Made by a program: the position numbers and the translations under genes. From Anaerolineae bacterium (GTDB lineage: Bacteria; Chloroflexota; Anaerolineae; Anaerolineales; Anaerolineaceae), in the NCBI GenBank assembly GCA_013314735.1, contig JABUFD010000001.1, positions 248,001 through 312,000 on the forward strand: a stretch of DNA of 64,000 nucleotides, written 5' to 3'. The first letter of the stretch is position 1; the number at the start of each line of letters is the position of its first letter. The notes under the pieces were generated by a model, which was not told where the DNA came from, searched no databases, and saw only the letters and a program-made list of their open reading frames with translations. Below are positions 985 through 32,503 of this stretch, in pieces.

Positions 985-2991
985 TCAATGTGCCAGAAGG
1001 TCCTTCGCCTGGGCAAGAACGTTCTCAACGGTGAAGCCGAATTTTTCGTAAAGAATCTCATACGGAGCAGAAGCGCCGAAGGAGCCCATGGCGATAATGC
1101 GGCCTTTGTTGGTGGCGTATCGCTCCCAACCCATGGCTACGCCGGCTTCAATCACAACGCGCTTGGCAATGGAAGGCGGAAGGACGCTGTCTTTGTAGTC
1201 CTGGTCCTGCTCTTCGAACAATTCCCAGCAGGGGAAGGAAACCACGCGGACGCGGGTGCCTTCTGCGGCAAGTTTTTCCGCAGCCTGGTAGGCAATGCTC
1301 AATTCAGAACCCGTGCCGATCAGGATCACTTCAGGAGTGCCCTCACCAAAATCCTTGAGGACATATGCCCCACGGGCGAGGTTACAGGCGCAGGCGTTTT
1401 CTGTGCGGTCGTACACCGGCAGGTCCTGGCGCGACAGGGCGAAAAAGGTGGGTTTACTGCGGTTACGCAGGGCGAATTTCCAGGCTTCGGCGGTCTCGTT
1501 GGCGTCCGCAGGACGGATCACGTACAGGTTGGGCATGGCACGCAGCGATGCGAGATGCTCAATCGGCTGGTGGGTGGGTCCGTCCTCGCCCAGGCCGATG
1601 CTGTCGTGAGTGAAGACCCAGATGCTGGGAATGTGCGAGAGGGCTGCCGTACGCATGGCGGAGCGGCAATAATCGGTGAAGACCATGAAGCTGGCGCCGT
1701 AGGCGATGCAGCCGCCGTGGAGAGTGATCCCGTTGACAGCGGCGCCCATGGCGAATTCACGCACCCCAAAGTGGAAGTTGCGTCCTTCTGGTGATTCGTG
1801 CTGGAAGGCCGGGCTGCCATTGATCCAGGTTTTGGTGGAGGGGGCGAGGTCAGCAGAACCACCGATCAATTCCGGGATGCGTGGGGCGAGGGCGTTGATG
1901 ACCTTACCAGATGCGTTGCGCGTAGCCACGCCTTTCTTCATGTCGGTTGGAAAGTCAACCAGGTCCACATCCCAGCCTTGCGGAAACTCTCCAGCCATGC
2001 GGCGCTTGAATTCCGCTGCCAGTTCGGGGTACTGCGCGGCATAGGCGGCCATTTCCTGTTCCCACTTTGCCTGGGCGGCGGCACCTGTTTCCAGTGCCTT
2101 CCGGTAGAAGGCAAGCACATCTTCCGGGATGAAAAAGCGCGGCTGCACCGGCCAACCGACCAATTCTTTGGCGGCATCCAGTTCGGCATTGCCGGGAGGG
2201 GCTCCGTGTGCTTTTTCGGAACCTGCCAGGTTGGGCAGGCCGTAACCGATGATGGTGGGACAGATGATCAGCGAAGGGCGGGGATCTGTTTTGGCGGCCT
2301 TGATGGCGGCGTCAATGGCTTCCACGTCGTTGCCATCGGCAATACGGATCACCTGCCAGCCATAAGCTTCAAAACGCGCACCACGATCTTCGGTAAATGC
2401 CAGTTCTGTTTCGCCGTCAATCGAGATGTGGTTGTCATCATAGAAATAGATCAATTTGCCAAGCTTCAGGTGACCGGCGAGTGATGCAGCCTCAGAGGCG
2501 ACACCCTCCATCAGGTCTCCGTCGGTAACAATACCGTAGGTGTAATGGTCAACAACAGGGTGGCCATCCTTATTAAAAATGGCAGCGAGATGCGCTTCAG
2601 CGATAGCCATACCGACGCCGGTGGCGAAACCCTGGCCTAACGGGCCGGTGGTGGTTTCCACGCCGGGTGTCAGGCCGACTTCGGGGTGGCCGGGGGTGAG
2701 GCTGCCCCACTGGCGGAACTGTTTCAATTGTTCCAGCGGCAGGTCATAGCCGGTGAGATGCAGCATGCTGTACAGCAGCATCGAGCCGTGTCCGCCGGAG
2801 AGGACAAAACGGTCGCGGTCCGCCCACTTGGGGTTGGTGGGATTGTGTTTCAGATGGCGCGTGAAGAGCGTATAGGCGATTGCTGCCGTGCCCATTGGCA
2901 GCCCCGGGTGCCCGGAATTGGCTGTCTGCACGCCGTCAGCAGAAAGGAATCGGATGGTATTGATGGCTTTTTCCTGAAAATCTTGGTTCAT
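985..2991 (-). CDS. tkt: Transketolase
   Basis: At 668 residues this is a full-length thiamine diphosphate-dependent transketolase, transferring two-carbon units between ketoses and aldoses. Visible hallmarks are the N-terminal '[11 protein letters not shown]' motif, the ThDP-binding region [15 protein letters not shown] (here 'VTDGDLMEG') with '[10 protein letters not shown]', '[13 protein letters not shown]' and the C-terminal domain '[19 protein letters not shown]'. It lies upstream of rpiB and tal on the same strand, with a strong terminator between. The ATG at 2991 is preceded by a GAGGTAGATACG stretch on the minus strand. Confidence 0.96.
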
Positions 2992-3119
2992 CTCGTATCT
3001 ACCTCATTCTTTGTTTAATCCACATCCAGGATGGCGCAACACACAATAGCGCCATTGCGAGTGTGATGGTTTGCTGTTCTTATTTTACCCCATGCGATGC
3101 GGGAACTGCATGCGCAAAT

Positions 3120-3147
3120 GTTCCTCTTTCATTTTATGAAGAGGAAC
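3120..3147. terminator. Hairpin between DUF1801 gene and tkt
   Basis: GTTCCTCTTTCAT and ATGAAGAGGAAC form a near-perfect stem (one bulged T) with a TTT loop. It lies 32 nt past the stop of the minus-strand DUF1801 gene and could terminate that operon, but the following T-tract is weak. The rest of 2992-3178 should hold the tkt promoter; I could not assign it with confidence. Confidence 0.4.
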
Positions 3148-3178
3148 ACTGATCTGGCAGCGATGGTTCTATTTGGTA

Positions 3179-3544
3179 TTACCAGGCGGTGAGGTTTTCT
3201 TCCACCCGGAATTTTACGATTCTCGTAATCAAATCCAGGGGGAGCGGTTGATCGAGTGGGAACCGCACGGTTCCCTTGGAAAGGTGGTAACGTTCCAATT
3301 CCGCACGAAAAGCCTCAACGCCGCTGGGTGCCGGATAAAATCCGATATGGGTTGGATAGGCTGCAAAATGCACCAGGTTCTTTTTTAGGTAGAAAGTCGG
3401 CATACCGTAACTGATTTTTTCTACGGCGTGGGGTGCAGCCGCCTGGATGGTGGAGCGAAGCTCCCGCAACTTTTCCTGAATGTCAGCGGGAAACCGGGCA
3501 ATATATTCCTCGATCGTGGTGAAGGTTGTGGTTTGAGATTTCAC
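3179..3544 (-). CDS. DUF1801 (YdhG-like, frataxin-fold) protein
   Basis: This protein of about 121 residues matches the DUF1801/YdhG family: 'TTIEEYIARFPADIQEKLRELR', 'AAPHAVEKISYGMPTFYLKK', 'VHFAAYPTHIGFYPAPSG' and 'GTVRFPLDQPLP'. Some members are proposed iron-binding frataxin-fold proteins; the biochemical role is not established. I place the start at the GTG at 3544 because GGAG stands 7 nt upstream, formed by the last codons of the preceding gene. An upstream in-frame start at 3562 lacks such a site. Three or four nucleotides separate it from the isochorismatase-like gene stop, so the two form one operon. Confidence 0.8.
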   Translation of the reverse strand: MKSQTTTFTTIEEYIARFPADIQEKLRELRSTIQAAAPHAVEKISYGMPTFYLKKNLVHFAAYPTHIGFYPAPSGVEAFRAELERYHLSKGTVRFPLDQPLPLDLITRIVKFRVEENLTAW

Positions 3545-3548
3545 AGGA

Positions 3549-4046
3549 TCACTCCAACACACGCAATAGTGCGCCAGGGGTCAGGTGGCTGCACAATTCT
3601 TCCACCAATTCGATTTGCCTGGGGTCGTGGCTGGCAATGCCGTAGCGGACGAGAATCGGTTTCAGGTCGAGGTCTTCCGCACCGCGGTAGGTGGAAAGGA
3701 CGCAGTAGGCGGCGGAGAATCCGGTGATGAAAATCGTATCGGCACCCAGGTCCTGGATCGTCTGGTACAGGCTGGTTTTGTTGAAGCTGTTGCCATATGT
3801 TTTATAAATATGGATGTCTGTGGGCATCACATCCATTTCGTCCGGGGTGTCAAAGCCTGGCTGGCCGGGCAGCAGGTTTTCAGATTTATTCATGTGCTGG
3901 ATGCAAATCACCGGCAGGTTGTGTTTCCGGAAAGCGCCTATAGCCATATTGATCACCTGTACCGCCTCGGTGAGGGATTGGGCTGTAACCGGGCTTTCCT
4001 GGTAAAAGGCTTTTTGAACATCAATGACCAATAAAACAGGTTTCAT
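3549..4046 (-). CDS. Isochorismatase-family cysteine hydrolase
   Basis: A 165-residue member of the isochorismatase/nicotinamidase superfamily. The catalytic Asp is in 'LLVIDVQKAFYQES' and the nucleophile is the Cys of 'FSAAYCVLSTYRGAEDL', in the usual place after the 'TIFITG' strand. The substrate cannot be told from sequence; members hydrolyse nicotinamide, isochorismate, ureidoacrylate or other amides. The start at 4046 fits the family N-terminus (MKPVLLVIDVQ) and has GGGATTCCC upstream but no strong Shine-Dalgarno; a longer form from 4121 adds 25 poorly conserved residues. Confidence 0.82.
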   Translation of the reverse strand: MKPVLLVIDVQKAFYQESPVTAQSLTEAVQVINMAIGAFRKHNLPVICIQHMNKSENLLPGQPGFDTPDEMDVMPTDIHIYKTYGNSFNKTSLYQTIQDLGADTIFITGFSAAYCVLSTYRGAEDLDLKPILVRYGIASHDPRQIELVEELCSHLTPGALLRVLE

Positions 4047-4139
4047 GGGAATCCCTTTCCGAAATAAGCTCGTTGGTATATAGGGATTATATGAAAAAAA
4101 GCATCCAATTGGGACAGGCAATTTCCTGCAAATGGAGAA

Positions 4140-5435
4140 TCAGTCTTCGTAAATAATAGCCATGTTCTGCAGTACCGACCAGGATTTTAAAAAGGTTTCT
4201 ATCCCCTTGTAATAGATCGTGCTGCCATCCAGAATGGTTACGTAGTCCGGCCCGTAACCAACCAGGAGTACCACGTGTTCATAGGGCGCCACAACGACTT
4301 CGCTGCCGTCCGTGGCAGTGTATACCTGAGCGGCCACATTGGTCCAGCTCTGGCCGATATACCAGATGATGACCGGCTGGCCATTGGCGATCTGCCGCTG
4401 CAACTCTTCGAAGGTGTAATTGCGCACGGCCTGTGCCGGCAGACCGTAGGCGCGCAGCAATGCAGCCACAGGTTCGGCGTGCACGCCATAAGCGCGTGGT
4501 GGGGTCAATCCCCAAACGCCATCCACACTGCCCACAAAGCCAACTTCCGGGTTGTCTGAAACCGGCAGGCCGTTGTGGAAATCCATTTCGTGAATTTCCA
4601 TGCCAAAGTAACGGGCCCAATCGACGGCCGCGCTTGATTCACAGCTTAAAGGGCGGATTTGATCGGAGCCGTAGATATTCCCGATGCCTGCACTGGCGGG
4701 TAATTCGGGTGTGGGGGTATGGGTCGGAACCGGAGTGGCAGTTTCGGTGGGAGTGTGTGTCGCCGTTGGCGAGGGTGATGCTGTCGCTGTCGGATAGGCG
4801 GTAATCGTTGATGTGGGTTCAGGAGTATTCGTCCCGGTTGGGGTGGCTTCCGCTGGCTGTGTAGTACCAGTCATCATCAGGCTGATGCTTCCGGAAACTG
4901 ATTGGGATGGGGGAAACAGCAGGGAGAGGATGTCAGCGCCAAAGCGCACATATACCAATCCAGCCAGCAGCAGCCCCAGCACAGCGGCAGCCGTGACCAA
5001 TACCCAGGAACGCCTGGATGCTGGTTTTGAAGCGGGAACGGTTTGCCGTGGCACCGCGATGCTTTCCGGCGCTACTGTAAATGGGGCGACAGATTGCAGG
5101 TTGCCAGTGACGGGCCGGGCCGTAGTGGTTTCATCTGCTGTGACGGGTGAGGGGATTGTAACGACGGGATGTTTGCGGACTTCACCCGTAAGCTCTGCCA
5201 ACTTTTTCGCGGCCAGTTCATTCGAGGGATTGATCCGCAGGCATTGATGGAGGCAGGCGATGCGCTCGCGTCTGCTGCCGGAGACCACCGCCAGTAAAAA
5301 CCAGGTGCGGTCTTCCTGTGGGAAATGCTGGATTAAAACCCGTAAGTATTGCCGGGCTTCGGTATAGCGCCGGTTTTTCGCAAGGCTGATGGCCTGGTGC
5401 AATGCCTGTTCAATGGTATCCATGATGCGGGTCAC
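4140..5435 (-). CDS. TPR-like, single-pass membrane protein with C39-like papain domain
   Basis: The protein (up to 431 residues) has three parts: a helical TPR-like N-terminus (about 5-85), one transmembrane helix (about 143-165) and, after a Thr/Pro-rich spacer (about 190-245), an extracellular C39-like peptidase domain (Peptidase_C39_2 type). The likely catalytic triad is Cys265 in 'PLSCESSA', His387 in 'YEHVVLLVGYG' and Asp403 in 'ILDGS'. Such domains cut or transfer peptides, or act as non-catalytic binders; the target is unknown. Start choice is open: a GTG at 5435 overlaps the upstream stop (GTGA), while the ATG at 5423 gives a more natural N-terminus (MDTIEQAL). It is coupled to the small membrane protein upstream. 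Confidence 0.75.
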   Translation of the reverse strand: MTRIMDTIEQALHQAISLAKNRRYTEARQYLRVLIQHFPQEDRTWFLLAVVSGSRRERIACLHQCLRINPSNELAAKKLAELTGEVRKHPVVTIPSPVTADETTTARPVTGNLQSVAPFTVAPESIAVPRQTVPASKPASRRSWVLVTAAAVLGLLLAGLVYVRFGADILSLLFPPSQSVSGSISLMMTGTTQPAEATPTGTNTPEPTSTITAYPTATASPSPTATHTPTETATPVPTHTPTPELPASAGIGNIYGSDQIRPLSCESSAAVDWARYFGMEIHEMDFHNGLPVSDNPEVGFVGSVDGVWGLTPPRAYGVHAEPVAALLRAYGLPAQAVRNYTFEELQRQIANGQPVIIWYIGQSWTNVAAQVYTATDGSEVVVAPYEHVVLLVGYGPDYVTILDGSTIYYKGIETFLKSWSVLQNMAIIYED

Positions 5436-5611
5436 TTCTCCTGATCTTTATCGCGGTTTGCCCAAAACAGAATGGTCAACAATGCCGCTGCTGCCCAAAC
5501 CAGTGCGGCGTATTGCTGATACCAGGGTGGATTGGAAAAGGCCAGGAAAGCGATTCCCAGCAGGATCAGCATCACAAACAAAGACCAGTACCGGCGGACA
5601 AATTCTTTCAT
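5432..5611 (-). CDS. Small two-helix membrane protein
   Basis: A 59-residue protein starting MKEFVRRYWSLFVMLILLG with two hydrophobic helices (about 9-27 and 34-50) and a charged tail (NRDKDQEK). I chose the ATG at 5611 because the sequence upstream of it is not hydrophobic and looks non-coding; a longer start lies at 5638. It overlaps the start of the C39-like gene and is probably co-expressed with it. No family recognised. Confidence 0.6.
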   Translation of the reverse strand: MKEFVRRYWSLFVMLILLGIAFLAFSNPPWYQQYAALVWAAAALLTILFWANRDKDQEK

Positions 5612-5738
5612 ATGACTGAGCGTAATGTCCCGGTGCAATTTGCAGGCCAGCCAGAGTGTATCATCATATCCTCATTATACAGGATGCAGGAAACAGGGCA
5701 AATCGGCAAGGCAGCCGAAACTTGTCGCCACTCCACTT

Positions 5739-5776
5739 ATGAAAACAGGCGAAGGAAGTTTGCTTCCTTCGCCTGT
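5739..5776 (-). terminator. Terminator of the heliorhodopsin gene
   Basis: A perfect 14-bp stem (ACAGGCGAAGGAAG at 5745-5758, CTTCCTTCGCCTGT at 5763-5776) with a 4-nt loop is followed on the minus strand by TTTTC. It lies 17 nt after the heliorhodopsin stop and separates that gene from the small membrane protein. Confidence 0.8.
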
Positions 5777-5792
5777 GATAGCTTGGGGGGGA

Positions 5793-6593
5793 TTATACAG
5801 GGGCCAGCGTGCCGGAGAAGATCAACCATGCCAGGAGTGTTTTGGCTGCCAGGCTGAGAACGATGTAGAATTTTTCACCGAACAGGTAGTCTTTCCAGGG
5901 GCCAATCTTCTTATACTGCAGGAACATGTTGATGGCAAAGATGTTGAAGAAGACGAACAGGGAGGGAATGATGGCATAAACGAAGTCTGGCGGTCGGGTA
6001 TCGGCGCTGCTGGAATTGTTGATTGCGCCCAGGAAGTACATGACCAACACGATCCAGGGCACAATGCCAGCGATACAACCGTAGATGAAGGCTTTCCAGT
6101 CGACCTTTTTGGTGAACTGGTTGATGTCTTCCATCAGGATGCCGAACAGGTTCATGGCGGCATTGACACCAAACATGGCGATCAAAGCGCCCACATCACG
6201 CACGCCAGCCAGGAGGCCGATCAGGACGATCATCCAGGAAGAGCTCAATGCATATTCATAGAAACGTACCGGGTTCTTACCTTTGGCCAAATTTTGCTGG
6301 TATTTCTTGTAACCCACCGTGGCCAACAGGAAATGCGCCACTGCGGAAATCAGCAGAAACACAGCGACCGCGATCCCAAACGGCAGATCATAAAAAACTC
6401 CGGTCTGCGGTTCCAATGAAAAGTTGTCGATATTGAATTTGAGATAATTGGTGTTGATTGGATACGTTACATCGTTACTGAGAACGATCATCAAAATACC
6501 CTGAATCAGGTGAAAGAAACCCATAATGGCGTTAAACCGCCGCAGGCCTGTCAACTTTTTCTGGGGGATGGCGACTTCATTTGCCGGACTCAT
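5793..6593 (-). CDS. Heliorhodopsin (HeR)
   Basis: A 266-residue seven-helix protein matching the heliorhodopsin family, retinal-binding light sensors that sit in the membrane inverted relative to type 1 rhodopsins. Diagnostic elements are 'LRRFNAIMGFFHLIQG' in helix 1, 'RFYEYALSSSWMI' in helix 3 and 'LSLAAKTLLAWLIFSGTL' in helix 7. Lys251 is the retinal Schiff-base lysine; Glu113 corresponds to the counterion; His28 and His87 match the two histidines near the retinal in characterised members. The ATG at 6593 has AAGGAG 9 nt upstream. It is a single-gene unit with its own terminator. No carotenoid-cleaving oxygenase gene is visible in the window, so retinal supply is unexplained. Confidence 0.93.
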   Translation of the reverse strand: MSPANEVAIPQKKLTGLRRFNAIMGFFHLIQGILMIVLSNDVTYPINTNYLKFNIDNFSLEPQTGVFYDLPFGIAVAVFLLISAVAHFLLATVGYKKYQQNLAKGKNPVRFYEYALSSSWMIVLIGLLAGVRDVGALIAMFGVNAAMNLFGILMEDINQFTKKVDWKAFIYGCIAGIVPWIVLVMYFLGAINNSSSADTRPPDFVYAIIPSLFVFFNIFAINMFLQYKKIGPWKDYLFGEKFYIVLSLAAKTLLAWLIFSGTLAPV

Positions 6594-6658
6594 TGATATA
6601 TCTCCTTGGTTGAATAAAATTATATTTAATAGAATAATAATGAATAATTATTAGACGC

Positions 6659-6714
6659 GTATTAGTTAATCACCTCAGTTTATCAACGTTTGTATAGATT
6701 CTAACGGACAAACG
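6659..6714 (-). promoter_or_regulatory. Putative heliorhodopsin promoter with upstream inverted repeat
   Basis: On the minus strand TTGATA (6681-6686) and TAATAC (6659-6664) are 16 nt apart, a reasonable housekeeping promoter for the heliorhodopsin gene. Directly upstream is an inverted repeat, CGTTTGT (6687-6693) and ACAAACG (6708-6714), which could bind a regulator. The surrounding 6594-6761 stretch is strongly AT-rich and holds no gene. Confidence 0.4.
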
Positions 6715-28501: not shown

Positions 28502-28515
28502 AAAACAAGTGTTCA
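28502..28515. promoter_or_regulatory. Possible LexA-type (SOS) box ahead of the RecA-like gene
   Basis: AAACAAGTGTTC at 28503-28514 resembles the Gram-positive LexA box GAAC-RNRY-GTTC with one mismatch in the first half-site. It lies in the 54-nt gap between the divergent bactofilin-like and RecA-like genes, 23 nt before the RecA-like ATG, where a repressor could block transcription. The match could be chance. Confidence 0.35.
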
Positions 28516-28537: not shown

Positions 28538-29197
28538 ATGGAAGGTTTCAACCCTGATTGGCAAGATTGCCCGGCGGAATTGCAGGTATCGGCGATTGGC
28601 AGGATAGAACATTTGTACTACGATGATGATGTGAATGACCTTGTCCCTGTTTCTGACCTGCTGATCGATGAAGCGCGGGGGTGCTGCGTACTGATCGGCC
28701 CGTACGCGGCGGCGGATGTGCTGCTGCGCCTGGCGGCACAGCTGACCGTGCAGCAGCCGGTCAACATCCTCGATGCCGCCCTGCGCTTTGATGTACACCA
28801 TGTGGCGCGCCTGCTGCGGCAGCGTTCCACCGCCATTTACGATGCACTCGAGCGTATTGAACTGGTGCGGGTGTTCAATGCCTGCCAGCTGGTGGATGGC
28901 CTGCGCGCCTTTGAGCGTGACCGCGCCCCGGTGCTGATCTTTGGCGCGTTGGCATTGTTTGAAACCGATATCCTGGGTAGCCAGCGCGAGCGGCACCTGC
29001 TGGTTTCCTATTTTGACCTGCTGCGCCGCATGGGGGCGGAGCGGTTGTTGTTCATCGGGCTGAAACCAGCGGAGCGCCTGCGCCAGGCGCCGTGGAATCA
29101 ACTGTTATATGATGCGGCGCGCGTGTATGACCTGTCGATGCAGGAGGAACCGCAAAGCGCGCAGCAATTGGACCTGTTTGGAGGGTTGGATGGGTAA
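28538..29197 (+). CDS. Inactivated RecA-fold protein with C-terminal sliding-clamp motif
   Basis: A 219-residue protein with the layout of a RecA/ImuA-type domain but no functional ATP site. At residues 54-61 it reads GPYAAADV exactly where GPxxxGKT is expected: the Gly, Lys and Thr are Ala59, Asp60 and Val61. The Walker B strand 'APVLIFGALALFE' has Gly instead of Asp. It ends with 'QQLDLFGGLDG', a good match to the beta-clamp-binding consensus QLxLF. I infer a non-catalytic partner for a DNA polymerase, like ImuA. There is no clear Shine-Dalgarno. It overlaps the next gene by 8 nt and lies upstream of a family B polymerase gene. Confidence 0.65.
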   Translation: MEGFNPDWQDCPAELQVSAIGRIEHLYYDDDVNDLVPVSDLLIDEARGCCVLIGPYAAADVLLRLAAQLTVQQPVNILDAALRFDVHHVARLLRQRSTAIYDALERIELVRVFNACQLVDGLRAFERDRAPVLIFGALALFETDILGSQRERHLLVSYFDLLRRMGAERLLFIGLKPAERLRQAPWNQLLYDAARVYDLSMQEEPQSAQQLDLFGGLDG

Positions 29198-29456
29198 ATC
29201 GGTTCGCACCATTACGGACGCATATCATCTCGAAGGGCAAATCCTGTCCAATTTTCGGCGCGGACTGCGGCGGCAGGACCAGGCGGTGCTGGATGAACTG
29301 CTGAGCTATACCCACAAGCACCTGGCGGCGGCATCGCTGGCCTCGGATGCCCTGCCGATGGAGATGTTCCTGCTGGCGATGATCCTGGAGCAGCAAAAAG
29401 AGATCGAAGCGCTGCGCGTGCGGCTGCAGCGCTTAGAACAATCGGCTGCTGGCTAA
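29190..29456 (+). CDS. 88-residue helical protein coupled to the RecA-like gene
   Basis: A small, almost wholly helical protein of 88 residues ending in a heptad-like stretch 'QQKEIEALRVRLQRLEQ', a likely coiled coil. The ATG at 29190 has GGAGGG upstream and overlaps the RecA-like gene stop by 8 nt, which means coupled translation and probably a shared complex. Its 3' end overlaps the convergent SRAP gene by 24 nt. No family recognised. It could mediate dimerisation or bridge to the polymerase. Confidence 0.65.
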   Translation: MGKSVRTITDAYHLEGQILSNFRRGLRRQDQAVLDELLSYTHKHLAAASLASDALPMEMFLLAMILEQQKEIEALRVRLQRLEQSAAG

Positions 29457-30122
29457 TGGCTCCACGCACATGGGACTATTGATCCTGGGACTGTTAACGG
29501 CATGCGAAACCGGGTAGGCCTTCATCTCATCGGCGGGGAAGGTTTGCAGCAGTGCTGCCAGCTGCTCCGGCATCAGCCTGTCGAGCCATGCCAGGCGGTC
29601 GCTGCCGCGCAGGATCACCGGCATGCGGTCATGCACGGCCGCCACCAGCGGGTTGGGTTCACAGGTGAGGATGGTGCAGGTTTCAATTGTTTCGCCGTCG
29701 GGCGGTGTCCAGCGCGACCACAGCCCGGCGAAGGTCATCAACCCGCCGCTGGCCAGCGAGAAAAAATGCGGCTGCTTGTTGCTGCCGCCAGTTTTTTCCC
29801 ATTCATAGAAACCATCGGCCAGCACCAGGCAGCGCTTCTGCTTGAAGGCATCGCGGAAGGCGGGTTTCTCCGCGGCGGTTTCGGAACGGGCGTTGATGAA
29901 ACCGCTGACCGATTTCCCATCCGCGGCGGGTTTCATCCAATGCGGGATCAATCCCCACTGCATCAGGCGCAGTACGCGCTGCGGGTCCTTCACCATTACC
30001 GGTACCATCTGCGAGGGGGTGATGTTGTAGCTGGGCGACCAGTCTTCAGCACCCTCAAACGGCAGGCCCATCTGTTCGGCAATTTCCTCCGCCTTCAGGC
30101 GCAATGTATATCTTCCACACAT
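29433..30122 (-). CDS. SRAP-domain protein (YedK/HMCES), abasic-site DNA crosslinker
   Basis: A 229-residue SRAP protein. It begins MCGRYTLR, where Cys2 (after Met removal) forms a stable crosslink to abasic sites in single-stranded DNA; the conserved 'NITPSQMVPV', 'GLIPHW', 'INARSETAAEKPAF', 'GFYEW' and 'HDRMPVIL' motifs are present, including the Asn, Glu and His of the active site. HMCES/YedK shields abasic sites from error-prone processing. It is divergent from the family B polymerase and convergent with the RecA-like pair, so it shares a damage-response neighbourhood. Confidence 0.93.
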   Translation of the reverse strand: MCGRYTLRLKAEEIAEQMGLPFEGAEDWSPSYNITPSQMVPVMVKDPQRVLRLMQWGLIPHWMKPAADGKSVSGFINARSETAAEKPAFRDAFKQKRCLVLADGFYEWEKTGGSNKQPHFFSLASGGLMTFAGLWSRWTPPDGETIETCTILTCEPNPLVAAVHDRMPVILRGSDRLAWLDRLMPEQLAALLQTFPADEMKAYPVSHAVNSPRINSPMCVEPLASSRLF

Positions 30123-30137
30123 GGTTTTCTTCCTTTG

Positions 30138-30190
30138 TTGATGCGCACTTATTTTTTAATTATACAACCCGTGTCCAGACTCCGGGTTGT
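30138..30190 (+). promoter_or_regulatory. Polymerase B promoter with overlapping inverted repeat
   Basis: TTGATG (30138-30143), a 17-nt spacer and TATACA (30161-30166) form a good promoter toward the polymerase gene. The inverted repeat ACAACCCG (30164-30171) and CGGGTTGT (30183-30190) overlaps the -10 end and the predicted start of transcription, a typical operator position. The same gap must hold the promoter of the divergent SRAP gene. Confidence 0.5.
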
Positions 30191-30232
30191 CAAAACCGGA
30201 ACCTGCCGTACCCGGATGGCAGGGGGTGGGTG

Positions 30233-32503
30233 ATGAAGAGCGCAGCCGTGCCCCAATCGACAGCGCTGCAGGAGATCAGTGGCTGGCTGCTGGATATTTA
30301 CACCCACCCGCAAAGCGGCCATACCTGCCTGTGGATCATCCGTGACGACGGGCGGCGGATGTGCCTGGCGCACCACGTCCCGGCGATTTTTTACATGAGC
30401 GGCGCGTCCGAAGCGCTGGCGCAGGCGGAGGGTTTCCTCTACCAGGCTTTCTCGGCCTGGGTGCAGGTGCGGCAGGAGCATGTACGCCGTCCCATCCATG
30501 CCAGCCAACAGCCGATCCTGGCAGTGCGCACCCCCAACGAGGTGGTGATGCGGCGCGTGTTCCGCGCACTGGAAGACCAGTTCCCCGCGCTGGATTATTA
30601 CAACGTCGATTTAAACGCCTCGCTGCTGTATGCCGCGCGTTACAATCTGTTCGCGCTGTGCCGTGTGCGCGCCGTGGCGGATGCGGAACGCCGCCTGCGG
30701 ACGATCGAAACCGGCGACAGCCGCTGGAACCTTGATTTGCCGGCGCCGCCGCTGCGCGTGTTGGAAATCCGTCCCAATGCCAATCCGCGTGCCGAGGCGC
30801 CTACCCTGGTCAGCATCAGCGCGGGCGGACGCCAGTTCCGGCATGCCTTTGCCACGGAGCGGGAATTGGCGCGGGTGGTGGCGCCTTACCTGCGGCGCTA
30901 TGATCCCGACATTCTCGTGACCGAGTACGGTGATGCCTACCTGATCCAGGCGATTGCCGAAGGCGCCCGGGGTTGGGTGGAGAGTGTGCCCCTGAATCGC
31001 GATCCCGATGCCCCGCTGCAGACACTCAAGGAGCGCTCGTACCATTCGTATGGGCAGCTGTATTTCCGCCCTTCGGCCGTGTTCCTGGCAGGCCGGCACC
31101 ATATTGACATGCATTCTTCCTTTTTCTGGCAGGATTCCGGCCTGGATGGTATTCTCGAGGTGGCGCGGGTGACGACACAATCGCTGCAGCGCGCGGCGCG
31201 CACCACCCCCGGTACCGGGATTTCCTCGATGCAGATTGTGGAGGCGCTGCGCAGCCATATCCTGGTGCCTTACAAGAAACAGCAGCCGGAGCGCAAGCGC
31301 AGCGCTGTCAACCTGCTGCAGCATGACATGGGCGGGTTCATCATGCAGCCGATCATCGGGCTGCACCAGCAGGTGGGGGCGGTCGACTTCATCAGCATGT
31401 ATCCTTCCCTGATGGTGCAATGCAATATATCACCGGAGTGCATTCCGCATGGGCTGGAAGAAGACCACGACGATCCCGGACTGATCCCGCGCACGCTCAA
31501 GCCGCTGCTGGACAAGCGCGTGGAACTCAAGCTGCGGATCGAGGAACGCCCGCCCAATGATCCGCGCTGCGATGATGACCGGCTGCGCTCTGATGCCCTG
31601 AAATGGCTGCTGGTCACCTGCTTTGGCTACCTGGGCTACAAGAATGCGCGTTTTGGGCGGATTGAATCGCATGAGGCAGTTACCGGCGCGGGGCGCGAGG
31701 CGCTCTTGCTGGCCAAGGATGTGGCAGAAGATATGGGGTTCCTGGTGCTGCACGCGATTGTCGACAGCCTGTTCGTGCAGAAGCCCGGATGCGATTTGAA
31801 GGGTGATTTTCATTCCCTGCTGGATGCAATCTCACAGCGCACCCGCCTGCCGATTGGGATTGACGGGGTGTTCCGCTGGGTGGCGTTCCCGCCTTCACGC
31901 ATGGATGCGCGCGCATCGGTCCCCAACCGCTATTTTGGCGTGTTCCAGGATGGTTCGTTGAAGGTGCGCGGGATTGAATCGCGGCGGCGGGATGTGCCGC
32001 CGTTTATCAAGGAAACCCAGATGGAAGTGCTGCACCTGCTGTCAAAAGCAGAGTTGCTGGACGAAACGCGCTACCTGCTGCCCGGCATTTTGAAGTTTGT
32101 CGAGGAGCGCCGCCGCGCATTGGCAATGAACGAAGTGGAGCCGGTGAAGCTGGTGATCCGCCATAAGCTGTCACGTGCGCTGGCGGAATACCGCGTGCAG
32201 ACGCCAGCCTCGATTGCCGCGCGTGAATTGACCGCCCATGGGCGCGACCCCCAGCCGGGCGAGGTGATCCAGTTCCTGCATGTGCGCGGCAAAATACCGG
32301 CCCGGCTGTGGCAGCCCGGCTGCCCCCTCAGTCCCAAAGAGATTGACCCGCGCCTGTACCTGCGTATTTTTGACCGGGCGATGGATACCGTGCTGGGCCT
32401 GTTCCGGCAACGCTTCCCGGAAATTCACCACCAGGGGGAGCAGTTGGGGCTGTTCGCGCCCAGTGAAATCTCCCGCCGCCAGCTGGGCTCGGGTTGGCGC
32501 TGA
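30233..32503 (+). CDS. Divergent family B DNA polymerase with degenerate exonuclease and altered motif C
   Basis: A 756-residue family B polymerase. Motif A is intact in 'VDFISMYPSLM' (Asp385). Motif B reads 'LKWLLVTCFGYLGYKNARFG', keeping Lys457 and GYLGY but not the usual NSxYG. Motif C reads 'HAIVDSLFV' where YxDTDS is expected: the first Asp is Ile509 and only Asp511 remains. Later 'NRYFGVFQDG' and 'VRGIESRRRD' match the family. The 3'-5' exonuclease is degenerate: the DxE of Exo I is lost ('LRVLEIRPN', residues 174-182) and Exo II lacks Asn and Asp. The C-terminus holds 'GEQLGLFAP', a clamp-binding motif. I infer a translesion or structural polymerase. The ATG at 30233 follows GGGGGTGGGTG. 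Confidence 0.85.
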   Translation: MKSAAVPQSTALQEISGWLLDIYTHPQSGHTCLWIIRDDGRRMCLAHHVPAIFYMSGASEALAQAEGFLYQAFSAWVQVRQEHVRRPIHASQQPILAVRTPNEVVMRRVFRALEDQFPALDYYNVDLNASLLYAARYNLFALCRVRAVADAERRLRTIETGDSRWNLDLPAPPLRVLEIRPNANPRAEAPTLVSISAGGRQFRHAFATERELARVVAPYLRRYDPDILVTEYGDAYLIQAIAEGARGWVESVPLNRDPDAPLQTLKERSYHSYGQLYFRPSAVFLAGRHHIDMHSSFFWQDSGLDGILEVARVTTQSLQRAARTTPGTGISSMQIVEALRSHILVPYKKQQPERKRSAVNLLQHDMGGFIMQPIIGLHQQVGAVDFISMYPSLMVQCNISPECIPHGLEEDHDDPGLIPRTLKPLLDKRVELKLRIEERPPNDPRCDDDRLRSDALKWLLVTCFGYLGYKNARFGRIESHEAVTGAGREALLLAKDVAEDMGFLVLHAIVDSLFVQKPGCDLKGDFHSLLDAISQRTRLPIGIDGVFRWVAFPPSRMDARASVPNRYFGVFQDGSLKVRGIESRRRDVPPFIKETQMEVLHLLSKAELLDETRYLLPGILKFVEERRRALAMNEVEPVKLVIRHKLSRALAEYRVQTPASIAARELTAHGRDPQPGEVIQFLHVRGKIPARLWQPGCPLSPKEIDPRLYLRIFDRAMDTVLGLFRQRFPEIHHQGEQLGLFAPSEISRRQLGSGWR

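Follow-up and report, generated by a model that had tools for sequence, protein, structure and literature searches.

The stretch of DNA analysed here (64,000 nt, hereafter the window) belongs to an Anaerolineae bacterium (GTDB lineage Chloroflexota; Anaerolineae; Anaerolineales; Anaerolineaceae), and corresponds to positions 248,001–312,000 of the forward strand of contig JABUFD010000001.1 (assembly GCA_013314735.1). Four reading frames proposed in the initial annotation were confirmed: a RecA-like frame and an 88-aa frame on the plus strand, an SRAP gene on the minus strand, and a polymerase B gene on the plus strand. We refer to the three plus-strand genes as iRadA, PPB2 and PolB2 (Table 1).

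Table 1. Genes, motifs and regulatory elements of the locus, in window positions.
Feature	Position	Strand	Basis
RecA-like frame as first read	28538–29197	+	Open reading frame
Promoter-like pair TTGGCA-17-TACGAT, SOS box between the hexamers	28596–28624	+	Consensus scan
LexA (SOS) box TAGAACATTTGTACTA	28605–28620	+	One mismatch in 12 to TAGAAC-N4-GTTCTA
iRadA, inactivated Rad51/RadA homologue, 188 aa from GTG	28631–29197	+	Relatives, profile, model
Degenerate Walker A position GPYAAADV	28697–28720	+	Translation; columns vary widely among relatives
C-terminal beta-clamp motif QLDLF of iRadA	29165–29179	+	Translation, tail patterns
PPB2, 88 aa, N-terminus MGKS, start overlapping iRadA stop	29190–29456	+	Open reading frame, profile, relatives
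SRAP (HMCES/YedK family), tail-to-tail with PPB2, 24-base overlap	29433–30122	-	Pfam
Inverted repeat ACAACCCG-N11-CGGGTTGT with perfect 8-bp arms, in the space separating the SRAP and PolB2 starts (divergent)	30164–30190		
PolB2 polymerase, 756 aa	30233–32503	+	Pfam, profile, model
Motif A aspartate D385	31385–31387	+	Invariant in 37-sequence alignment
Motif C HAIVD (507–511), first Asp lost, D511 kept; HxxxD form	31751–31765	+	Alignment
C-terminal beta-clamp motif QLGLF of PolB2	32441–32455	+	Translation, tail patterns

Predicted folds of the trio

The first reading of the RecA-like protein was right as to its Walker A, in whose place stands GPYAAADV with the second Gly, the Lys and the Thr all replaced. 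The predicted structure (pLDDT 82) aligns with RAD51D at Z 17.4 (168 residues, rmsd 2.6, RAD51D residues 86–290), and the model and GPYAAADV together describe a RadA/Rad51 fold without its N-terminal domain and without the ATPase residues; the protein is RecA-like by structure prediction, as proposed, but of the Rad51/RadA type rather than that of bacterial RecA. Its profile matches solved RadA (3.6e-9). Searched singly against Pfam and NCBIfam, neither the window iRadA nor its PPB2 gave a credible match, and 13 of 64 relatives reached Pfam Rad51 (best E 0.0057). The gene most likely starts at the GTG at 28631 rather than at the ATG at 28538, which lies upstream of the promoter-like pair. The later start is favoured by low model confidence over residues 1–40 (block means 43–64), by the equivalent point falling near the start of iRadA in relatives, and by the promoter-like pair, whose enclosed SOS box makes the shift likely. 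PPB2 was recognized by a profile match (E 1e-30); a SlyX assignment for it (E 0.29) was dismissed.

PolB2 matches Pfam at 1.8e-24, and its predicted structure (pLDDT 88) is that of a family B polymerase, with Z-scores of 23.8 to Pyrococcus abyssi PolB and 24.2 to an engineered TNA polymerase. The reported loss of exonuclease residues is borne out by profile alignment to solved archaeal polymerases, window residues being matched by eye: R/N stand at the DxE of Exo I and Y/L at the N/D of Exo II. At the aligned Exo I positions the PolB2 family consensus is acidic (E, D), whereas the window residues are not. The Exo III position presumably falls between aligned stretches. These absences, a motif C lacking its first Asp and a RadA-like partner stripped of its Walker A residues would all suit a dead polymerase in a trio that acts as a regulatory or structural complex, as in the first proposal of an inactivated PolB2. 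We regard this as very unlikely: D385 and D511 are both invariant in the 37-sequence alignment, which is unexpected of a dead enzyme, and the HxxxD form of motif C, described for PolB2 in PMC8764526, is also that of Sulfolobus Dpo2, reported there to be as active as the replicase Dpo1. In a screen for defence systems, PADLOC gave a single match, between the polymerase domain and a model named homing endonuclease (5.3e-20), which we did not read as a sign of defence.

Gene linkage and SOS boxes among relatives

A search of genome contigs with the single protein gave no match; repeated with an alignment, it gave 532 relatives, the best 80 of which were used. All three genes occur at 76 of these 80 named loci, being split at one of the 76 (L146); the full trio is present in the Anaerolineaceae isolates Leptolinea tardivitalis, Longilinea arvoryzae and Levilinea saccharolytica. 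A second set of 80 regions, overlapping the first, was fetched, 78 from the order set (with two regions from each of two genomes) and two from the phylum set; between the fetched and named sets, 141 of 161 loci are distinct. In 80 of 81 loci (the window and 79 of the 80 fetched relatives) the genes run iRadA–PPB2–PolB2 on one strand, and in the exception (L105) neither PolB2 partner was found. Thus the trio that the initial annotation took for parts of one machine does keep together in relatives. These figures lean to the closer ones, since the selection omitted the majority of fragments and, at the bottom of the score range, some full-length matches (e.g. G658, G637, G561 and G663).

PolB2 was found in 102 of 201 genomes sampled from the order, roughly half, and iRadA in 71 of 101 genomes of the family. 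More widely, PolB2 gave matches in 13 of 199 genomes of the class sample and in 34 of 399 of the phylum; four of the latter, near 1e-11, could represent different polymerases of family B. The 30 plasmid matches listed for PolB2 are all archaeal (29–33% identical); a Haloarcula plasmid carries, ahead of its PolB2, a PPB2 (4.8e-20) and a truncated match to iRadA (2.5e-5).

The LexA box TAGAACATTTGTACTA is the top-scoring SOS site of the 64-kb window, where the runner-up has three mismatches, and it displaced AAACAAGTGTTC at 28503–28514, considered earlier for this role. In the host, GAACATTTGTTC lies upstream of a LexA-like gene of 253 aa. Among relatives, an SOS box with at most two mismatches in 12 is present upstream of iRadA at 36 of 77 loci, whereas 770 pieces drawn at random from these loci gave 16 (three of the 80 loci were dropped, their upstream sequence being short); the 41 regions without such a box count against an SOS-controlled PolB2 mutasome. 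The E. coli type of box, CTGT-N8-ACAG, is absent upstream of iRadA at the 80 loci (0.22 expected by chance), which says little beyond its not being the box of this family. Exact GAAC-N4-GTTCTA occurs seven times in the host genome, against six for a reversed-pattern control, and reached no clear SOS gene. In the window, PolB2 has no SOS box ahead of it, the best site there having four mismatches. Promoter-like pairs number two in the region against 0.9 expected in shuffles, weak alone and near chance; the putative promoter around the SOS box would yield an iRadA message with no leader or almost none from the start point that we infer. SOS induction of the operon is probable.

A congener carries the identical 16-mer before iRadA, with PolB2 about 3 kb off, preceded by a second SOS box of its own and cut short by the contig edge. 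The separation could be an assembly error in this 6.6-kb contig of a metagenome-derived genome, but the separate box before PolB2 speaks against that. With an SOS box on each half, this congener hints that the halves stay under SOS control once the operon is split.

Clamp motifs and the SRAP neighbour

Both C-terminal beta-clamp motifs of the initial annotation are present in the window, but their conservation in orthologues, which it had made a test of the idea, holds for iRadA and fails for PolB2. With tails cut by locus ends and iRadA–PPB2 fusions removed before the iRadA counts, 132 distinct iRadA tails remained, of which 75 have Qxx[LMI]F, where shuffling gives a mean of 3.3; the figure for PolB2 is two of 135 tails (shuffled mean 1.3). 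The window is the one locus in 126 with canonical motifs in both proteins, a combination that almost never occurs according to PMC11791011. It is a real possibility, though we lean somewhat to the other side, that the PolB2 QLGLF is a chance tail sequence and the clamp is held by iRadA only. Besides the rarity of canonical motifs in PolB2 tails, three looser patterns lie near or under the shuffled level (2 against 1.2, 5 against 7.0 and 2 against 1.3), and QLGLF sits 15 residues from the end of PolB2, in a stretch of declining model confidence (block means 75, 51 and 35). The exact form QLxLF, however, was found in two of the 135 PolB2 tails against 0.1 in shuffles. PolB2 also bears C-terminal clamp-like motifs in three of the four loci with an iRadA–PPB2 fusion (by pattern in L134 and L140, by a purpose-written one in L132; L139 is without), and in L133, where the iRadA tail has no motif, and some bacterial PolB2 proteins have been described with beta-clamp motifs (PMC11791011).

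The SRAP protein matches PF02586 far above the cut-off (1.3e-74, 250.7 bits, cut-off 27.1) and a single copy was found in the host assembly. It reads MCGRY at residue 1, NARSE at 77, FYEW at 105 and HDRMP at 164, and we take the positions of Cys2, Asn, Glu and His to be catalytic. As first annotated, the gene lies between the partners; it is antisense, with PPB2 on one side and PolB2 on the other. The inverted repeat beyond its start was spotted by eye and then searched for, giving one occurrence (up to three mismatches allowed) against 0.36 expected.

Could SRAP function as a fourth mutasome component, shielding abasic sites or passing them to PolB2? It lies tail-to-tail with PPB2 in window and congener alike, adjoins the operon on the same strand at six of the 80 named loci (best 80 of 532), and comes after PolB2 in two Leptospira phages, immediately in the first case and 0.5 kb further on in the second. 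A hand count put it within 10 kb of PolB2 in five of 45 genomes of the order that have both genes, where by our rough estimate random placing would give about 0.3 close cases, and enrichment of SRAP near PolB2 has been reported (PMC11791011). Yet SRAP is widespread (90 of 121 genomes of the order); in 40 of the 45 genomes, many of them drafts, the search found no SRAP closer than 10 kb to PolB2; of the five close cases, three belong to a single genus, in which the gap is about 8 kb; and only two of 81 loci have it within 5 kb. Antisense in the window, it would also need a separate promoter. We also considered whether SRAP has a clamp motif: the C-termini are ASSRLF in the window, AAGRLFQ in the congener and QPRLFD in one phage, the window tail lacks the Gln of the motif, and Qxx[LMI]F occurs in the last 35 residues of none of the 30 other SRAPs of the order listed. 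We think a fourth part unlikely; SRAP probably serves at abasic sites under the same stress, without being a necessary subunit.

A bolder proposal would make the set, in this genus, a four-part machine: a LexA-controlled PolB2 with two clamp motifs and a dedicated SRAP that shields abasic sites, carried also by phages as a portable cassette. Four PolB2 records come from Leptospira phages, and the two examined both read iRadA–PPB2–PolB2–SRAP; a literature search on Leptospira phages and SRAP gave only unrelated papers. We hold this proposal to be distinctly improbable, but if true, the four-gene set on phages would be a portable mutagenic bypass cassette.

A bacterial PolB2 mutasome

We conclude with high confidence that the locus encodes a bacterial PolB2 mutasome (iRadA, PPB2 and PolB2), predicted to be repressed by LexA, tied to the clamp and active as an extender free of proofreading. 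Its present basis is gene content, gene order, predicted folds, motifs and an SOS box identified by sequence; the complex, the extender activity and mutagenesis at this locus we infer from the literature. The initial annotation had named the kind of machine correctly, given the linkage, the Rad51 fold and the iRadA clamp motif, but not its novelty, the system having been published in 2014 and 2025. Inactivated RecA partners of divergent PolB, which it took to be reported mainly for archaea, are published for bacteria too: Makarova 2014 (PMC4104785) describes the trio there, in some with lexA, and Timinskas 2025 (PMC11791011) modelled the complex and reported the bacterial order iRadA–PPB2–PolB2, nearby lexA and SRAP, and beta-clamp motifs. 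With this published mutasome the window shares the three genes in bacterial order on one strand, a motif C minus its first Asp, a decayed exonuclease, a Rad51-like inactive partner, the PPB2 N-terminal arm, the clamp motif at the iRadA end, and a link to SRAP and LexA.

It differs in having canonical clamp motifs in iRadA and PolB2 together, an antisense SRAP between PPB2 and PolB2, and two changed motifs. PPB2 begins MGKS, where most of 80 listed relatives have MGRT, and at the D(K/R) motif described in print ahead of motif A, D365 is invariant in the alignment while the next residue, variable in relatives, is M, giving DM. Both count against our assignment, the former by conservative changes and the latter by one that is not conservative, as does the antisense SRAP, which leaves a 776-bp gap between PPB2 and PolB2 so that co-transcription is not assured.

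The ImuA-ImuB-DnaE2 system, to which the initial annotation likened the layout, is LexA-controlled and combines a RecA-superfamily partner, a clamp tether and an error-prone polymerase. The analogy of outline stands, whereas membership is ruled out: the operon holds no Y-family ImuB and no C-family DnaE2, its only polymerase is of family B, and the partner is Rad51/RadA-like. The single IMS-family match in the host genome, DinB-like by eye, lies elsewhere than the operon. The Dpo2 (PolB2) of Sulfolobus islandicus is a family B enzyme with no proofreading and an HxxxD motif C, but has an archaeal host, and archaea, that host included, to our knowledge have no LexA. PMC7390963 and PMC8764526 describe Sulfolobus Dpo2 as a damage-induced extender responsible for targeted mutagenesis. 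E. coli Pol V (UmuD'2C-RecA) resembles the PolB2 mutasome in its small oligomeric arm protein, polymerase and recombinase fold (PMC11791011), but uses a Y-family polymerase and active RecA. The literature consulted contains experiments for archaeal PolB2 only, with no assay of a bacterial PolB2, and a search gave no paper on PolB2 in Chloroflexi; the main text of PMC11791011 makes no mention of Chloroflexota.

On this basis, LexA would repress the iRadA-PPB2 promoter in the undamaged cell, and its release upon DNA damage would allow iRadA, PPB2 and PolB2 to be made. According to the published model, a PPB2 trimer and one iRadA would dock on PolB2, with iRadA standing in for a neighbouring Rad51 subunit. 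PolB2, keeping its polymerase site (D385, D511) and having no proofreading, could then elongate primers that are mismatched or end at a lesion, with mutations as the price, and the C-terminal clamp motifs of iRadA and PolB2 would anchor the complex on the beta clamp of the host; SRAP, from the opposite strand, would probably deal with abasic sites in the same response.

The system is already in print, and the window adds a bacterial example of a described damage-tolerance machine, its unusual details (two clamp grips, an SRAP gene inside the operon) being variants of what is already known. Many bacteria are predicted to have a PolB2 mutasome; specific experiments are suggested by the double clamp motif, which is rare, and by SRAP, which recurs as a neighbour, and the SOS box before the operon, at 36 of the 77 loci, offers a testable SOS link in bacteria.

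Membership in the PolB2 mutasome

The trio of PolB2, arCOG07300 and an inactivated RadA was described by Makarova and colleagues, whose account includes the same three families linked in several bacterial genomes and, in some genomes, lexA within the same predicted operon (PMC4104785). The names PPB2 (the small partner) and iRadA, and a heteropentamer model, come from Timinskas and colleagues, in whose account iRadA-PPB2-PolB2 is the sole bacterial order (fusions and cases with intervening genes included), SRAP and DUF72 genes lie near polB2, and bacterial beta-clamp motifs occur in either iRadA or PolB2 and almost never in the two together (PMC11791011). A 2026 survey lists the G2/PolB2 group in bacteria (PMC12926913), and Sulfolobus Dpo2 is reported as a damage-induced, active extender without proofreading, responsible for targeted mutagenesis (PMC7390963, PMC8764526). 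No word beginning Chloroflex occurs in the main text of PMC11791011, nor is Chloroflexota mentioned in that of PMC12926913, and a literature search for PolB2 and Chloroflexi found no paper.

Here we find that the window locus is a member of this known system, since the features that could be tested match, one of them without a clear outcome (PolB2 reads DM where the published motif is D(K/R)). The polymerase-B mutasome proposed in the initial annotation thus stands, but as a system already in print, bacteria included (PMC4104785, PMC11791011). The source assembly amounts to 4.09 Mb in 13 contigs (95.5% complete; the window is on contig 9). Anaerolineae is its probable class, judged from the best 80 of 532 named relatives of the polymerase: nearly all have Chloroflexi/Chloroflexota, Anaerolineae, Anaerolineales or Anaerolineaceae in their titles, or else a name of the kind Leptolinea, Longilinea, Levilinea or Candidatus Aquidulcis.

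Features of the window locus and of two Leptospira phage loci
Feature	Positions	Remark
iRadA gene (RecA superfamily)	28538-29197	limits of the initial annotation
SOS box TAGAACATTTGTACTA	28605-28620	one mismatch to TAGAAC-N4-GTTCTA
PPB2 gene, 88 aa	29190-29456	start overlaps stop of iRadA
SRAP gene	29433-30122	strand opposite to other three
PolB2 gene, family B polymerase	30233-32503	
Leptospira phage L243 (KF114879.1)	2186-6710	four genes annotated as hypothetical proteins and family B polymerase
Leptospira phage L244 (KF114878.1)	2183-5967	four genes annotated as hypothetical proteins and family B polymerase

SRAP and PolB2 matched Pfam families (PF02586, 1.3e-74, and PF00136, 1.8e-24), and iRadA and PPB2 found a credible match in neither Pfam nor NCBIfam. 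A profile of 64 iRadA proteins, the window's included, matched solved RadA first (3.6e-9), then Rad51, DMC1 and RAD51D, and the predicted structure (mean pLDDT 82) matched RAD51D (Z 17.4 across 168 residues) and RadA (Z about 16); the proposed RecA-type fold is thus, by prediction, that of Rad51/RadA and not of bacterial RecA. The PolB2 model (pLDDT 88) matched Pyrococcus abyssi PolB (Z 23.8 across 640 residues); its score against an engineered TNA polymerase was Z 24.2. All 37 aligned sequences keep the motif A aspartate (D385) and the second aspartate of motif C (D511), and the first motif C aspartate is replaced (HAIVD). The reported loss of exonuclease residues is borne out for Exo I and Exo II, both replaced in a profile alignment (window residues compared by eye), the Exo III region lying between the aligned stretches. 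PPB2 begins MGKS in the window and MGRT in most relatives.

Linkage, SRAP and phages

PolB2 was found in 102 of the 201 genomes sampled from the order, 13 of 199 in the class sample and 34 of 399 in the phylum sample (four doubtful). Linkage was followed in 80 regions, drawn from order-level matches and two further phylum-sample genomes and biased to better matches, which with the window make 81 loci. The predicted co-occurrence was confirmed: iRadA and PPB2 were detected in 80 of the 81, with order and strand kept in all 80 and the two genes fused in four. All three genes were found in 76 of the 80 named genome loci, split in only one (L146, a congener); of the four misses, L184 and L216 are contigs starting at the operon, and L180 and L218 are not. 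Two genomes (G298, G645) each have two full-length PolB2 genes (L086/L087 and L061/L064), each copy with its own iRadA and PPB2.

As first described, SRAP lies between the partners and the polymerase, and for this reason the PPB2-PolB2 gap is 776 bp in the window versus at most 187 bp in relatives. A perfect inverted repeat (30164-30190), possibly an operator, lies in the interval from which SRAP and PolB2 are read divergently. The window gene is the one SRAP copy found in the source assembly, and SRAP occurs in 90 of 121 genomes of the order. By hand count it lies within 10 kb of PolB2 in five of 45 order genomes where both were found, against roughly 0.3 for random placing; three of the five come from a single genus, in which the genes stand about 8 kb apart, and draft contigs can mask others. 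SRAP was found within 5 kb of PolB2 in two of the 81 loci, and adjoins the operon on the same strand in six of the 80 named loci. PolB2 matched 20 records in a phage collection, among them four Leptospira phages at about 90% of PolB2 length; both of those examined have all four genes on a single strand, in the order iRadA, PPB2, PolB2, SRAP. PHROGs phage families matched PPB2 (2.7e-9), SRAP (6.1e-66) and, weakly, iRadA (9.1e-5). A literature search on SRAP and family B polymerases in Leptospira phages returned only unrelated papers, and the two papers that mention both PolB2 and SRAP are among those cited here. Thus SRAP is a recurrent neighbour of PolB2, as published, and only possibly a subunit.

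Several SRAP C-termini are clamp-like: ASSRLF in the window (29433-29450), AAGRLFQ in the congener (L227), QPRLFD in phage L243 and QLDLDF in locus L268. They recall human HMCES, which has a PCNA motif.

Beta-clamp motifs

In a set of 141 distinct loci, 75 of the 132 unfused iRadA proteins have Qxx[LMI]F at the C-terminus, where shuffling gives a mean of 3.3. Only two of the 135 PolB2 proteins have it (mean of 1.3 on shuffling; two with exact QLxLF versus 0.1 expected), so that conservation of the clamp motifs in orthologues holds for iRadA and not for PolB2. Both proteins carry the motif in one of 126 loci, the window; L103 and L170 pair the iRadA motif with a PolB2 near-motif (QLNFF, QLRLW). 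In iRadA-PPB2 fusions iRadA has no free C-terminus. A PolB2 motif or near-motif is present in three of the four fusions, L134, L140 and L132 (in L132 through a pattern made to fit that locus), L139 being the exception. L133, where the iRadA tail is without a motif, has one in PolB2 as well. These cases fit the published idea that the clamp motif shuttles between iRadA and PolB2, and suggest a reason for it.

Probable SOS control and a proposed mechanism

Of 80 loci, 22 have GAAC-N4-GTTC upstream of iRadA, with 23 sites in all versus 1.65 expected. TAGAAC-N4-GTTCTA, with at most two of 12 mismatched, occurs in 36 of 77 iRadA upstream regions versus 16 of 770 pieces taken at random from these loci, a control that may include the sites themselves. 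The next-best match in the 64-kb window to its SOS box has three mismatches. The box lies between TTGGCA and TACGAT (spacing 17), a kind of pair near chance level in the region. Because it falls within iRadA as initially annotated, the start at 28538 is set aside and GTG 28631 is most likely, consistent with relatives' starts and low model confidence in the first 40 residues; 28538-28630, which holds the promoter-like pair and the box, is probably non-coding. Three host genes exceed the cut-off for the LexA DNA-binding family, and the one of LexA length (L142, 253 aa) has GAACATTTGTTC roughly 80 bp upstream of its start. An SOS box was not found before the window PolB2 (best site, 4 mismatches), whose transcription would have to run through SRAP or start at a different promoter.

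In the congener (L146/L227), whose PolB2 is 69% identical to the window's over residues 7-558, the identical 16-mer stands directly before an ATG. PolB2 there lies beyond two genes, by eye one for an oxidoreductase and one glutamine-synthetase-like, on the strand opposite to iRadA, with its own SOS box TAGAACTTTTGTTCTT 45-60 bases upstream of its ATG. A tRNA-Gly and a tRNA-Cys directly precede it. G725, labelled the same genus, has an iRadA match on contig 80 (1045-1560); we take it to be one genome with G716, whose contig 80 (6,584 bases) is this congener contig; on it the SRAP and PPB2 genes meet tail-to-tail, like those of the window. If the congener contig is right, SOS control would have been kept or regained through rearrangement.

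The genes, their order, the predicted folds, the motifs and, by sequence, the SOS box are shown here; the following steps are inferred. Release of LexA would turn on iRadA-PPB2, and PolB2 directly or via read-through; the three proteins would assemble as in the published model and dock on the beta clamp. The host's one Y-family match, DinB-like by eye, could, speculatively, act as inserter, and the complex would extend lesion or mismatched ends without proofreading, leading to more mutation.
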